This document shows, one piece after another, positions 26,267 to 33,031 of a DNA stretch of 33,272 bases. Every line of letters starts with the position of its first letter. The stretch's first letter is position 1. The DNA is from Candidatus Methanoplasma glyptotermitis (GTDB lineage Archaea; Thermoplasmatota; Thermoplasmata; Methanomassiliicoccales; Methanomethylophilaceae): contig JAIRYF010000017.1 in the NCBI GenBank assembly GCA_031267895.1, positions 1 to 33,272 of the forward strand, given 5' to 3'. A model generated the notes under the pieces. The model was not told the DNA's origin. It did not search any database and saw nothing but the letters and a program-made list of their open reading frames with translations. The translations under genes and the position numbers were made by a program.

Positions 26267-26638
26267 ATGTCGGACAGCAACAAAGAAGTGACGATCTCGA
26301 TCAGGATGGGAACAGAAGACCTCCAGACAATGGAAGACTTCATGGCCGAGAATGAGATCGACAGCCGTTCACGTTTTGTCAGGGATGCAATATCCGGGTA
26401 CATAGCCTCGCAGAGGCACAATGCACCCGATGGTGCGGGACCGGCAAGCGGGTTCTTCGTCCGCTTCAGAGAGGTACAGATGGAAGCCCTCAGGTTGATG
26501 GTGGAAGATGGGATTGCCTTCAACGAAGAGGAATACATCAGAAAATGCGTGCTCGAAAAGCTTGTGAAACCGGAGTCCGAAACGGATTCGGCCGAACGCG
26601 CTTTCAAGGCGGCGCAGATGACCTCAAAGATGAAATGA
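26267..26638 (+). CDS. Ribbon-helix-helix DNA-binding protein upstream of an FtsZ-like gene
   Basis: A 123-residue transcription regulator. Residues 7-45 form the RHH fold: a beta strand (KEVTISIRM), then two helices, with the SRSRFVRDAISGYI core typical of the MetJ/Arc class. The C-terminal 75 residues are mostly helical and may sense or multimerise. It is nine bases from the FtsZ-like gene in the same direction. In haloarchaea the RHH protein CdrS lies next to ftsZ2 and controls cell division genes; the similar pairing here suggests a comparable role but the proteins are not alike enough to equate. The start follows GAGATGATGAA, a weak ribosome-binding site. Confidence 0.8.
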   Translation: MSDSNKEVTISIRMGTEDLQTMEDFMAENEIDSRSRFVRDAISGYIASQRHNAPDGAGPASGFFVRFREVQMEALRLMVEDGIAFNEEEYIRKCVLEKLVKPESETDSAERAFKAAQMTSKMK

Positions 26639-26647
26639 AGAGAAGGG

Positions 26648-27442
26648 ATGGAAAAATCATTCGGTGAAGCGATGGGAAGGTGCTTGAGCACCTCTTCGCC
26701 GGAAACAAACGCTTTAAAAAATGGGGATGCACAAATGGAAGCGAACACAAGAGAGACGGACACATCCGTTACGATCGAACCCCGGGTTGCGGTGGTCGGT
26801 CTCGGCGGAGCGGGATGCAATGTCGCAAGCGTTTTCTATAATGAGCTTGCACCAGTGGATGCCATCGCCATAAACACGGACAAAAAGGCCCTGGACGAAA
26901 CATCCGCAGACAAGAAAATATACATATGCAAAGCGGTCACGAAAGGCGAGGGCACCAGAGGCGATGCCAGACTTGGCAGCAGATGCGCCAAAGTTCATGA
27001 GGACGCGATAGAGAAGGCACTTGTCGGACACGACATTGTATTTCTGATCGCAGGACTCGGCGGAGGCACCGGGACGGGTGCGGCATCCGTGGTGGCGGAG
27101 ATATGCAACCGCAACGGAATACCTGTGTTCGCCGTTGCGATAAATCCGTTTTCCTTCGAGACCGGCAGGATACCCGTGGCCAGACACGGATTGAGAATGA
27201 TCAGGGCTGTATGCCCCAACACATTCACCGTGGAGAACGACAAGATCCTCGGACTCATGCCGGACGCGACAATAGATGAGGCAATGCGCGCGGTGAACCT
27301 GAGCATAACGAGTTTCGTCCGCAAAACCGCGGATGAATTTGCATCCAAGATCGAGAAGGAGATGTCTTCCGAGAAGCAGACATCCTCTGGAAGGATCGGG
27401 GACATGCCGGAAATCCAGGCCATGCCAAGAATTAAAACATGA
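26648..27442 (+). CDS. FtsZ-family GTPase-domain-only protein lacking the T7 loop
   Basis: A 264-residue tubulin/FtsZ homologue. The GTP-binding parts are clear: GLGGAG (51-56), the tubulin signature GGGTGTGA (138-145), NPFSFETGR and the ENDKI loop that contacts guanine. FtsZ is normally about 350-400 residues. Here the protein stops roughly 100 residues after the tubulin signature, just before the NxDxxD T7 loop that completes the hydrolysis site of the next subunit, and lacks the C-terminal domain. It may cap, nucleate or sense rather than polymerise. The tail EIQAMPRIKT recalls, loosely, an FtsZ end peptide. ATG 26648 has only a short GAAGGG upstream; ATG 26735 (MEANTRETD) follows GGGGATG and could be the real start. 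Confidence 0.85.
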   Translation: MEKSFGEAMGRCLSTSSPETNALKNGDAQMEANTRETDTSVTIEPRVAVVGLGGAGCNVASVFYNELAPVDAIAINTDKKALDETSADKKIYICKAVTKGEGTRGDARLGSRCAKVHEDAIEKALVGHDIVFLIAGLGGGTGTGAASVVAEICNRNGIPVFAVAINPFSFETGRIPVARHGLRMIRAVCPNTFTVENDKILGLMPDATIDEAMRAVNLSITSFVRKTADEFASKIEKEMSSEKQTSSGRIGDMPEIQAMPRIKT

Positions 27443-30447: not shown

Positions 30448-30486
30448 GGCTTGAACACACAGGAATAATGTTACATGCAGTGAGAT

Positions 30487-30494
30487 TATATTTA
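30487..30494 (+). promoter_or_regulatory. TATA box of the cyclase-like cassette
   Basis: TATATTTA lies about 18-25 bases before the ATG at 30512. Initiation would then fall at or next to the ATG, fitting a leaderless first gene. There is no Shine-Dalgarno sequence before it. Confidence 0.5.
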
Positions 30495-30511
30495 TCTGAC
30501 GCGCATCCGTA

Positions 30512-31315
30512 ATGAATGGCATGAGTGCAAATCCGGCACTGACTTTGACGAAAAAATGTATGGTCGCCTTTATTGACATATTGGGGTCCAAATCAATTCT
30601 CTGCTCTGACGATAAAAAAGGAGTCGAAGAATATGTGAGAGGTATACGCGGTTTTAACGATATGATATACGATGAATTTCCTTCATTTCACATTCGAACT
30701 TTCTCTGACAATATTTTGATTTATACGGATGACTGCTCAGAATCCAGCATAATGGCAATGATAAATTCAGTGGCACATCTGCAATATGAGGTATTGTGTC
30801 AATTCAAACTGCTCATGCGCGGGGGAATAGTGATTGACGATCTCCATTGGATAGATGACGATGAAGATTTTATCACAGGCAGATCAATAGTGAGGGCACA
30901 TAGGATAGAGGAGTCAAAGGCCAAAAATCCAAGGATAATGATGAGTAAGAAGGATTTCTCAGACATGCGGTTTTATATGGCCCCCTGTGAGTACGGAGAT
31001 TGTGTTGCCAAGGATAAAGACGGGTTCCTGTTTGTAAATTATCTTCAGACAACAATGAATGAGGGGTTTCCCAATGAGGAACTGATTGAAAAACATGCCC
31101 GAGCTATAATATCACACACAAAAGCCGATACAGAAAAACGAGGAGAGAATAAGGAAAAACGAGAGCGAATAATGATGAAAGATGTGTGGACATTGGAATA
31201 CCATAACGGTTTCTGCAGTGCAAATGATATTCCATTGGAAATAAGCTATGATCTAGATGGCGGGGAAAATATAATTATGTTTGCTGAAGATGTATCAGCT
31301 GACAAAAAGGGGTGA
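30512..31315 (+). CDS. Class III nucleotide-cyclase-like protein, first gene of an accessory cassette
   Basis: A 267-residue soluble protein. The pattern MVAFIDILGSKSIL (D22), RTFSDNILIY (D66), LMRGGIVIDD (about 102-110) and ITGRSIVRAHRIEESKAKNPRIMMS (about 121-145) follows the order of class III adenylate/guanylate cyclases: first metal Asp, second metal Asp, RxG loop, and the GxxVxxAxRxE segment. D22 and D66 are 44 residues apart, as are the two catalytic Asp of mammalian adenylyl cyclase. The C-terminal 100 residues are charged and unknown. Many uncharacterised prokaryotic proteins share this FIDILG-type fold, and some relatives make cyclic nucleotides in defence (Pycsar). Activity here is not shown. 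Codon use and base content look more A+T-rich than the genes to the left. It overlaps the next gene region at its stop. Confidence 0.7.
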   Translation: MNGMSANPALTLTKKCMVAFIDILGSKSILCSDDKKGVEEYVRGIRGFNDMIYDEFPSFHIRTFSDNILIYTDDCSESSIMAMINSVAHLQYEVLCQFKLLMRGGIVIDDLHWIDDDEDFITGRSIVRAHRIEESKAKNPRIMMSKKDFSDMRFYMAPCEYGDCVAKDKDGFLFVNYLQTTMNEGFPNEELIEKHARAIISHTKADTEKRGENKEKRERIMMKDVWTLEYHNGFCSANDIPLEISYDLDGGENIIMFAEDVSADKKG

Positions 31316-31320
31316 GTATG

Positions 31321-31884
31321 ATGGCATATACCGAGGACGATATGTTGAAATTTGACAGAGAGGACTTATCTCCCGCCGATTTGCTTGTATTATTTATTTC
31401 GGGCAACTCCCCGGCACTGAGAACGCGCATACAAAAGATATCCTTTTTGTATGATGAAATATACAATAAAGAGAGGAAAGAGGCAGACCATCATGCATAC
31501 TTTTTCGGCGGCTACTCTGATGATATCGAAGAATCCATGGAAAACTTGGTTGATATGGGTGTACTGGACGAAGGGCGCGATGGTTATGTCCTGACAGAAT
31601 ACGGCAAAGCACTGACGGAGTCTCTGATGGATCAAAAAGATCAGCGCGAAAAAAAGGAGCGGATAGATCGCATCAAAAACGCGCTGTCGAATGTGGCGGA
31701 TCGCAGAGTGGTCGGACTCACATACAGATTCTATGAGGAGACCGCCTCAAATTCAGCCATCAGGTCTTCGGTGGAGAGAATGAATCTTTCGTCAAAAATA
31801 GACGGAAAATTCCTTCTTGACGTAGACAAGGAGGAGTTCGAAAACTATTTGCGCACGGGGAAACCGATTAACATGACTTCATGA
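31321..31884 (+). CDS. Winged-helix-like protein of the cassette, unknown function
   Basis: About 187 residues, soluble. The N-terminal half resembles a winged-helix domain: helices ADLLVLFISG and RTRIQKISFLYDEIYN, then YFFGGYSDDIEESMENLVDMGVLDEGRDGYVLTEYGKAL (about 62-100), the common Y-x-FGxYS...L...G-L...Y-LT-x-G arrangement of uncharacterised archaeal winged-helix proteins. The rest is a charged helical region, possibly coiled coil (about 105-130), and a short C-terminal domain. I do not recognise a named family with confidence; distant similarity to DUF4065/Panacea-like antitoxins is only a guess. GTG 31312, ATG 31318 and ATG 31321 are all possible; GGTGAG is best placed for 31321. It follows the cyclase-like gene directly, so the two are co-transcribed. 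Confidence 0.65.
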   Translation: MAYTEDDMLKFDREDLSPADLLVLFISGNSPALRTRIQKISFLYDEIYNKERKEADHHAYFFGGYSDDIEESMENLVDMGVLDEGRDGYVLTEYGKALTESLMDQKDQREKKERIDRIKNALSNVADRRVVGLTYRFYEETASNSAIRSSVERMNLSSKIDGKFLLDVDKEEFENYLRTGKPINMTS

Positions 31885-31894
31885 GGGTGATGAT

Positions 31895-33031
31895 CTGGCC
31901 AAAAAATACACAATCAGCAATCCGATATCCGATGAAGATCCGACGGGTGCGTCTCTGATGAAAAACGTAACTATGCGGGCAGGATCGTCAAAAAAATCAA
32001 ACTGCATCTCAAAATGCGTTGAACGGACCACAGACGTCAGAACTATCAATAGTCTGACCTCCCCTCCTATGAATGAGTGCTATATCGATCTGACACTGGA
32101 TAAACTGAGAGTGCTTGACAGTGACAGAACGGCACAAGAAAAATATATAATGTCCAGATCAAAATTTTTGGACAGAGGTTTGATCAATGTTCTTATAATT
32201 AAGTTAAGAATTGAGTCCGGCCAGGGACTGGAGAAGGAAGATTATGATTATATCAACTCACTGCTGCAGTGGGAGCGCAACGATATCTATGCAATGCCTA
32301 TACTTGAGTTCGGAAAAGGTTTTGACAGTACGGCAAGAGTAAATCACTATGATGATTTTGTGACCGAGATGCTTGGGCAAAAACCATCGTGGTTCAAGGA
32401 TGATGTCAATGTTGGGATGTCTGTTCCGTCATTCTATCCAAGACGCCCAATCAATAATCTATTCAGATTATATGGCGATGAACATCCGACATTCGTCGCG
32501 GTGGATTTTAACAATTCTCGAATGGACAAACCGGACGGCATAGTATCCACAATACTGAGCCACTTCCTCAAAGAGAAGGAAGACAACACCTTCATGTACG
32601 GCGTGAATGTAAAGCCATACAAGAAAGGAGCTGAAATATCGTCAGCGTGGGATGTCTACACTATACATGGTGCATTTAATGCAATAGGTCCCACCCATTC
32701 AAAACCACATTCGATTGTTGTGTCCGGCGATTGGAGTTCCATGGGACGCATCTTCGATTCGGATAATCTGACATACTTAAAAATGGACGGTGCACACAGA
32801 GACTCGTTTATTTATTGGATTTCGGACTCTTACGGAATCGAGCTGCATCCGGAATTCGGAAAGAACGATAAAAGTTTATATTCGTACCTCAAACGCTATA
32901 ATTTCGAGATGATCAACCGGAAATTAAGTGAAATCTCAAAAGCGATTAACGACGGAGATGAGGGATACTTAAAAGATGTCAAATCGCAAATGCCAGAGGA
33001 AATGAAGAATAAAAAGATCATTGTTCGCTGA
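31895..33031 (+). CDS. Unknown protein, third gene of the cassette, probable CTG start
   Basis: About 378 residues if it starts at CTG 31895. No recognised family. It has no signal peptide or membrane helix. Middle-region strands such as TFVAVDFNN, MYGVNVKP and SIVVSGDW, with intervening helices, suggest an alpha/beta fold. The first ATG in frame is 31958, but the preceding 21 codons are open and read LAKKYTISNPISDEDPTGAS, which looks coding, and GGTGAT (31886-31891) lies exactly three bases before the CTG, the same spacing seen for ubiX. No ATG, GTG or TTG lies in frame after the TGA at 31874. It begins ten bases after the winged-helix gene stop. If the CTG is not used, the protein starts at 31958 with 357 residues. 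Confidence 0.65.
   Translation: MAKKYTISNPISDEDPTGASLMKNVTMRAGSSKKSNCISKCVERTTDVRTINSLTSPPMNECYIDLTLDKLRVLDSDRTAQEKYIMSRSKFLDRGLINVLIIKLRIESGQGLEKEDYDYINSLLQWERNDIYAMPILEFGKGFDSTARVNHYDDFVTEMLGQKPSWFKDDVNVGMSVPSFYPRRPINNLFRLYGDEHPTFVAVDFNNSRMDKPDGIVSTILSHFLKEKEDNTFMYGVNVKPYKKGAEISSAWDVYTIHGAFNAIGPTHSKPHSIVVSGDWSSMGRIFDSDNLTYLKMDGAHRDSFIYWISDSYGIELHPEFGKNDKSLYSYLKRYNFEMINRKLSEISKAINDGDEGYLKDVKSQMPEEMKNKKIIVR

Follow-up and report, generated by a model that had tools for sequence, protein, structure and literature searches.

A recurring three-gene archaeal cassette with a cyclase-fold protein and a probable Panacea-type domain: a candidate toxin-antitoxin-like module

At the right end of the window, i.e., the whole contig that was analyzed (G000:C62; 33,272 bases of a 1.72 Mb draft genome), three co-directional open reading frames are found, the first of which encodes a cyclase-like protein. 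Does this cassette form a signaling system of the Pycsar type, a toxin-antitoxin-like unit, or merely a set of accessory genes? The explanation that accounts best for the data, to which we give an even chance of being correct, is that the three genes make up a toxin-antitoxin-like module, whose origin is probably horizontal and whose function is probably antiviral, and which comprises a cyclase-fold toxin (g1), a Panacea-type antitoxin (g2), and a third component (g3).

Layout and composition of the cassette

The following features were delineated in the window:
about 30485..30495, + strand: TATA-box-like element TTATATTTAT, read directly in the sequence, with a promoter function suggested by archaeal promoter spacing
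30512..31315, + strand: g1, 267 aa, class III nucleotidyl-cyclase-fold protein with D22 and D66 and with V127 instead of the canonical Asn; proposed toxin
31312..31884, + strand: g2, 190 aa, winged-helix protein probably related to Panacea (SocA/DUF4065) and to the C-terminal domain of DarG; candidate antitoxin or switch
31895..31957, + strand: probable N-terminal extension of g3, 21 codons from CTG, with in-frame homology to the N-termini of the relatives at loci L089 and L041
31958..33031, + strand: g3, 357 aa from ATG, third component that is conserved in g2 modules, with a possible but unproven tRNA-guanine-transglycosylase-like barrel fold

This layout agrees with the preliminary description of the locus, made from the sequence alone, which reported three genes in one direction with almost no gap behind one TATA box. 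The g1 and g2 genes overlap by 4 bases, and the gap between g2 and g3 amounts to 73 bases if g3 begins at the ATG. Upstream of this ATG and in frame with it, the translation LAKKYTISN aligns with MARYTISD in L089, and a GGTGAT ribosome site precedes the CTG at 31895. Because of this homology and this site, the CTG is probably the real start of g3, which would reduce the gap to 10 bases. The element TTATATTTAT lies about 26 bases 5′ of the g1 ATG at 30512, so the transcript is likely to be leaderless, as in archaea. The contig ends 241 bases 3′ of g3, and therefore any further downstream genes lie outside the view.

The base composition of the cassette is foreign, which bears out the earlier remark that it differs from that of the flanking genes. 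The GC content equals 0.397 in g1, 0.449 in g2, and 0.414 in g3 vs. 0.512 ± 0.016 in the 18 other window ORFs of at least 180 aa, and the GC content at third codon positions is lower as well (0.403, 0.529, and 0.466, respectively, vs. 0.576 ± 0.025). A lower GC content than in the flanks also marks the cassette of the two nearest relatives (0.526 vs. 0.589 and 0.442 vs. 0.552).

A probable Panacea-type protein with a conserved partner and exchangeable neighbors

The g2 protein matches the PADLOC family PDC-M19A (E 1.1e-9, residues 30–163), and its relatives match PDC-M19A (E 1e-9 to 1e-12), DarG (E 1e-6), and HTH_45. The Pfam Panacea model (PF13274) gave no match for g2 itself, and an hmmsearch of the g2 profile against PDB sequences produced no meaningful match. 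Nonetheless, the profile–profile comparison (hhalign) of the g2 family with Panacea (PF13274) proteins yielded 94.7% and E 6e-8 over 119 columns, with a score of 56 vs. a shuffled maximum of 10, and genes in two genomes (G128 and G222) are matched by both the g2 and the Panacea profiles. Given this match and these intermediate genes, g2 is best read as a divergent Panacea-superfamily or DarG-type domain that falls short of the Pfam model. Of the two proposals made for the locus at the outset, a signaling or a toxin-antitoxin-like unit, the latter thus appears to be the better half of the guess, and for g2 the role of an antitoxin or switch is more plausible than that of the generic sensor initially suggested. 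The cassette differs from DarTG systems, to which the DarG matches relate it, in having neither a DarT ADP-ribosyltransferase nor a macrodomain, and from the PADLOC candidate system PDC-M19, to which it is related by the M19A match, in that g1 and g3 have no PADLOC match.

For g3, neither Pfam, NCBIfam, and PADLOC nor an hmmsearch against PDB sequences yielded a meaningful match. The hhalign comparisons with a tRNA-guanine transglycosylase (TGT) profile scored above the shuffled controls but were not significant (E 0.016–0.07; scores of 27 and 21 vs. shuffled maxima of 17 and 16, respectively). The zinc-binding CxCxxC motif located near the C-terminus of TGT and DpdA proteins is absent from the window g3, all cysteines of which are situated within the first 45 residues. 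A single-sequence AF2 model of g3 was unusable (pLDDT 39.9), and its Foldseek result was meaningless. A TGT/DpdA-like barrel is therefore treated here as a possible lead.

The searches for relatives of the cassette covered between 61 and 293 genomes of the phylum, as well as 147 genomes of the order. The g3 relatives are rare, being present in 8 of the 293 genomes. The three genes do co-occur elsewhere, so that the first refuting condition named in the preliminary description, a lack of such co-occurrence, turns out in favor of the observation. The g1–g2–g3 succession, in the same order and on the same strand, with adjoining or overlapping ends, was found in two further genera of this family (loci L088 and L089), and g1 and g2 overlap in these two loci as they do in the window. 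The best conserved of the three proteins across these operons is g3 (45–49% identity), followed by g2 (35–37%) and g1 (31–33%). This synteny rules out a chance cluster, and the three genes constitute a recurring, probably horizontally mobile cassette. Searches for related loci with g1 and with g3 across genome contigs, and with all three cassette genes across viral contigs, found nothing, and g1 relatives surfaced only once wider alignments were used. Within the literature covered, which includes few subscription papers, no description of the three-gene unit was found.

A g2-type gene adjoins g3 in 18 of the 19 archaeal loci, the window included. The sole exception (L093) lies at a contig end, and in its genome a g2 match is found where another contig ends. 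In nine loci, the place of g1 is taken by a PIN-like RNase gene, which either overlaps g2 or directly abuts it and converges with g3, whereas seven loci contain g2 and g3 only, arranged as an operon, convergently, or divergently. The g1 and PIN genes are mutually exclusive, i.e., they were never found together at the 19 loci. The two PIN-associated g2 relatives that were scanned have a C-terminal match to the UPF0175 antitoxin, and the PIN genes next to these two match DUF3368 / PDC-S70. These loci thereby resemble the UPF0175–DUF3368 (PIN RNase) pairs, from which the window cassette differs in having no PIN gene and no UPF0175 match in g2; g1 fills that place. Since a PIN-type RNase replaces g1 beside the same g2–g3 pair in other archaea, the toxin would be the exchangeable part of the module.

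One of the loci with a PIN-like gene is a second, distant g2–PIN–g3 module in the genome of the window (L087; G000:C50, 4816–6659). It has a PIN-like gene broken into two ORFs and a short g3, and thus looks decayed. A g2 relative with 51% identity and no g1 upstream lies next to ilvB/ilvC-like genes at the end of a contig (L032; G002:C40, 192–1184), and the position of g3 would fall past this end. Outside the phylum, a g3 relative without g2 was observed beside a large methyltransferase-like gene on a plasmid of Haloarcula sp. JP-L23 (L169, 3998–5212).

The closest described parallel is found in the Burkholderia prophage phi52237, where a putative nucleotide-cyclase protein, PanT (YP_293707.1), is a toxin neutralized by its Panacea antitoxin (Kurata et al., 2022, PMC8832971). 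This toxin stops transcription and translation, mainly the former, and its chemistry was left unexplained (PMC8832971). The cassette resembles this PanAT pair in having a cyclase-like toxin candidate beside a small Panacea-superfamily protein in a compact, conserved operon, in which g1 directly adjoins g2; the likeness of g1 to the phi52237 protein is by description only, and the toxin role of g1 is predicted. Furthermore, a viral contig (L141) has a Pfam Panacea gene and, beginning two bases past it, a g1-family gene, and no g3 was seen in the vicinity. The differences are that g2 is a divergent archaeal relative with no Pfam Panacea match of its own, that g1 precedes g2, and that accessory third genes are rare in PanAT systems, whereas nearly every archaeal g2–g3 locus examined shows a conserved third gene, g3. 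The phi52237 pair is the one tested case known to us of a cyclase-fold toxin held by a Panacea-type antitoxin (PMC8832971). A conserved archaeal operon that combines parts of these two kinds with a metal site lacking the usual transition-state residues, and with a PIN swap partner, would offer a direct route to what such proteins make.

The mechanism that we infer for the module is as follows. The g1 protein would use its two-metal site on nucleotides and stop growth via its product or via nucleotide depletion, and the winged-helix domain of g2 would bind g1 and keep it inactive. The likely task of g3, the third component, is either to detect infection or to act on nucleic acid, so that an infection disturbing g3 or g2 could release g1 and thereby arrest growth.

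The chief rival of this explanation places the toxin-antitoxin core in the g2–g3 pair, with g3 as the toxin or enzyme, g2 as its antitoxin, and g1 as a cyclase-fold accessory with a sensing or tuning role toward the pair. The seven loci that have g2 and g3 with neither g1 nor PIN mean that g3 could itself be the toxin, and its higher conservation in the operons (45–49% vs. 31–37%) fits the same view. We nevertheless consider this arrangement rather unlikely: at nine loci a PIN-like RNase has been added, and the two scanned g2 relatives have the matching UPF0175 domain, which points to the added gene as the toxin; the g1-family protein of L141 pairs with a true Panacea antitoxin; and the Haloarcula plasmid has g3 without g2.

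Returning to the module with g1 as its toxin, one can tentatively go further, on a possibility that we rate as the less probable side of even, and see in these loci an undescribed family of archaeal defense modules. In such a family, interchangeable toxins would be armed by two constant parts, namely g2 as a Panacea-type switch and g3 as a novel enzyme or sensor, perhaps with a transglycosylase-like barrel. The toxin would be the PIN RNase in most lineages and, here, a cyclase-fold protein with an altered active site that yields a non-canonical nucleotide product. Having no recognizable family and being present at nearly all archaeal loci examined, g3 would represent a new component class of archaeal toxin-antitoxin or defense modules.

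The cyclase fold of g1 and its altered active site

The g1 protein has D22 and D66, located 44 residues apart, and an RGG motif (103–105), as was noted at first sight; the third motif, previously given as GxxVxxAxRxE, is in fact GxxxVxAxRxE (GRSIVRAHRIE, 123–133). Pfam does not recognize g1 itself, although its relative in L063 lies above the Guanylate_cyc cut-off. The hhalign comparison of the g1 family with class III cyclases yielded a probability of 85% and E 6e-6, with a score of 48.9 vs. a shuffled maximum of 12.3. An AF2 model of g1, built with 12 prophage homologs, has a pLDDT of 77.2 and a pTM of 0.76. Class III cyclases account for all of the 50 leading PDB matches of this model (E about 5e-6 to 2e-4; target TM up to 0.71), the uridylate cyclases 8jsz and 7r65 among them. 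By profile and model, g1 is thus a class III nucleotidyl cyclase fold, as originally proposed. The search of the g1 profile against PDB sequences with hmmsearch gave no meaningful match, PADLOC has no family for g1 at E ≤ 1, and the PHROG match of g1 (phrog_23933) has no function attached.

The metal-binding aspartates are well conserved in the family. In the archaeal and plasmid set, D22 is found in every row that has a residue there and D66 in 16 of 18, with Glu in the other two, and both are present in all 13 members of the prophage set. The transition-state Asn and Arg (VNxxxR) are usual in active class III cyclases. Among 19 g1-family members, the Asn at position 127 is present in one (the window g1 has V127), and the Arg at position 131 likewise in one, namely the window protein itself (R131). 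As the family is devoid of these residues, though the fold and metal site are there, g1 is likely to have a chemistry other than that of textbook cyclases.

These features bear directly on a Pycsar-like reading, by which g1 would make a cyclic nucleotide upon infection and g2 or g3 would act as receptor-effector. The catalytic fold, the uridylate cyclases among the structural matches, and the retention of both metal aspartates are what g1 shares with Pycsar systems. What separates it from them is the loss of the transition-state Asn and Arg in the family and the lack of a PADLOC match for g1. In addition, no Pycsar-type effector (TIR or membrane and cyclic-nucleotide-binding domain) was matched by g2 or g3, and none was seen by ORF reading 3′ of g3 in L088 and L089; g2 matches antitoxins rather than CNBD receptors, and g3 has no family match. 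Membership in Pycsar was rejected on these grounds, and signaling defense of this kind appears improbable.

Some g1-family members occur with neither g2, g3, nor Panacea, accompanied by a PRTase gene or a ParA-like ATPase gene, or alone, which counts against the reading of g1 as the toxin of this module. In several genomes of the archaeal family to which the window belongs, a PRTase-like gene is followed by a g1 relative. Pairs of PRTase-like (PRTase-CE) and cyclase-like genes, with a small winged-helix-like gene nearby, were observed in L030 (7015–8846), L031 (3381–5241), and L063 (4444–6495). On the viral contigs L138 (3928–5687) and L142 (3912–5630), the latter by reading only, the g1-family gene comes directly after one for a ParA-like ATPase. 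A tblastn search with the prophage g1 relatives against a phage collection found nothing.

Genomic neighborhood of the cassette

The preliminary description proposed to look for a defense-island context in other genomes, and the relatives of the cassette indeed lie among defense genes, as identified by PADLOC in all four of the relatives checked. These are AbiL genes beside the cassette in L088, a type I specificity domain near that of L089, PDC-S14 together with a type II methyltransferase next to L041, and BrxA, BrxC, PglX, and PglZ alongside the copy in genome G026. In this genome, a g1 relative is located at the opposite end of the same BREX island.

The same data weigh on the last alternative, a non-defense accessory cluster in which g2 would be an ordinary transcription regulator and g1 and g3 metabolic enzymes. 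The winged-helix signature in g2 relatives (HTH_45) would suit such a role, as would the left neighbors of the cassette in the window, which look like housekeeping genes (e.g., indolepyruvate ferredoxin oxidoreductase-like by sequence), the right side being cut by the contig end. The patchy distribution of g3 in the phylum, the foreign GC content, the defense genes beside all four relatives, and the g1 homologs found in prophages and on plasmids argue against it and leave this alternative a slim chance.

Two further arrangements were observed. In the window, a ribbon-helix-helix-like gene is followed by a gene for a short FtsZ/tubulin-like protein (26267–27442; 264 aa, GTPase domain only, Pfam Tubulin E 5e-32). 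On a viral contig (L099, 3011–5732), a g1-family gene is preceded, at a distance of about 1.2 kb, by a TIR-domain gene (PF13676), and DNA methyltransferase-like genes lie on either side.
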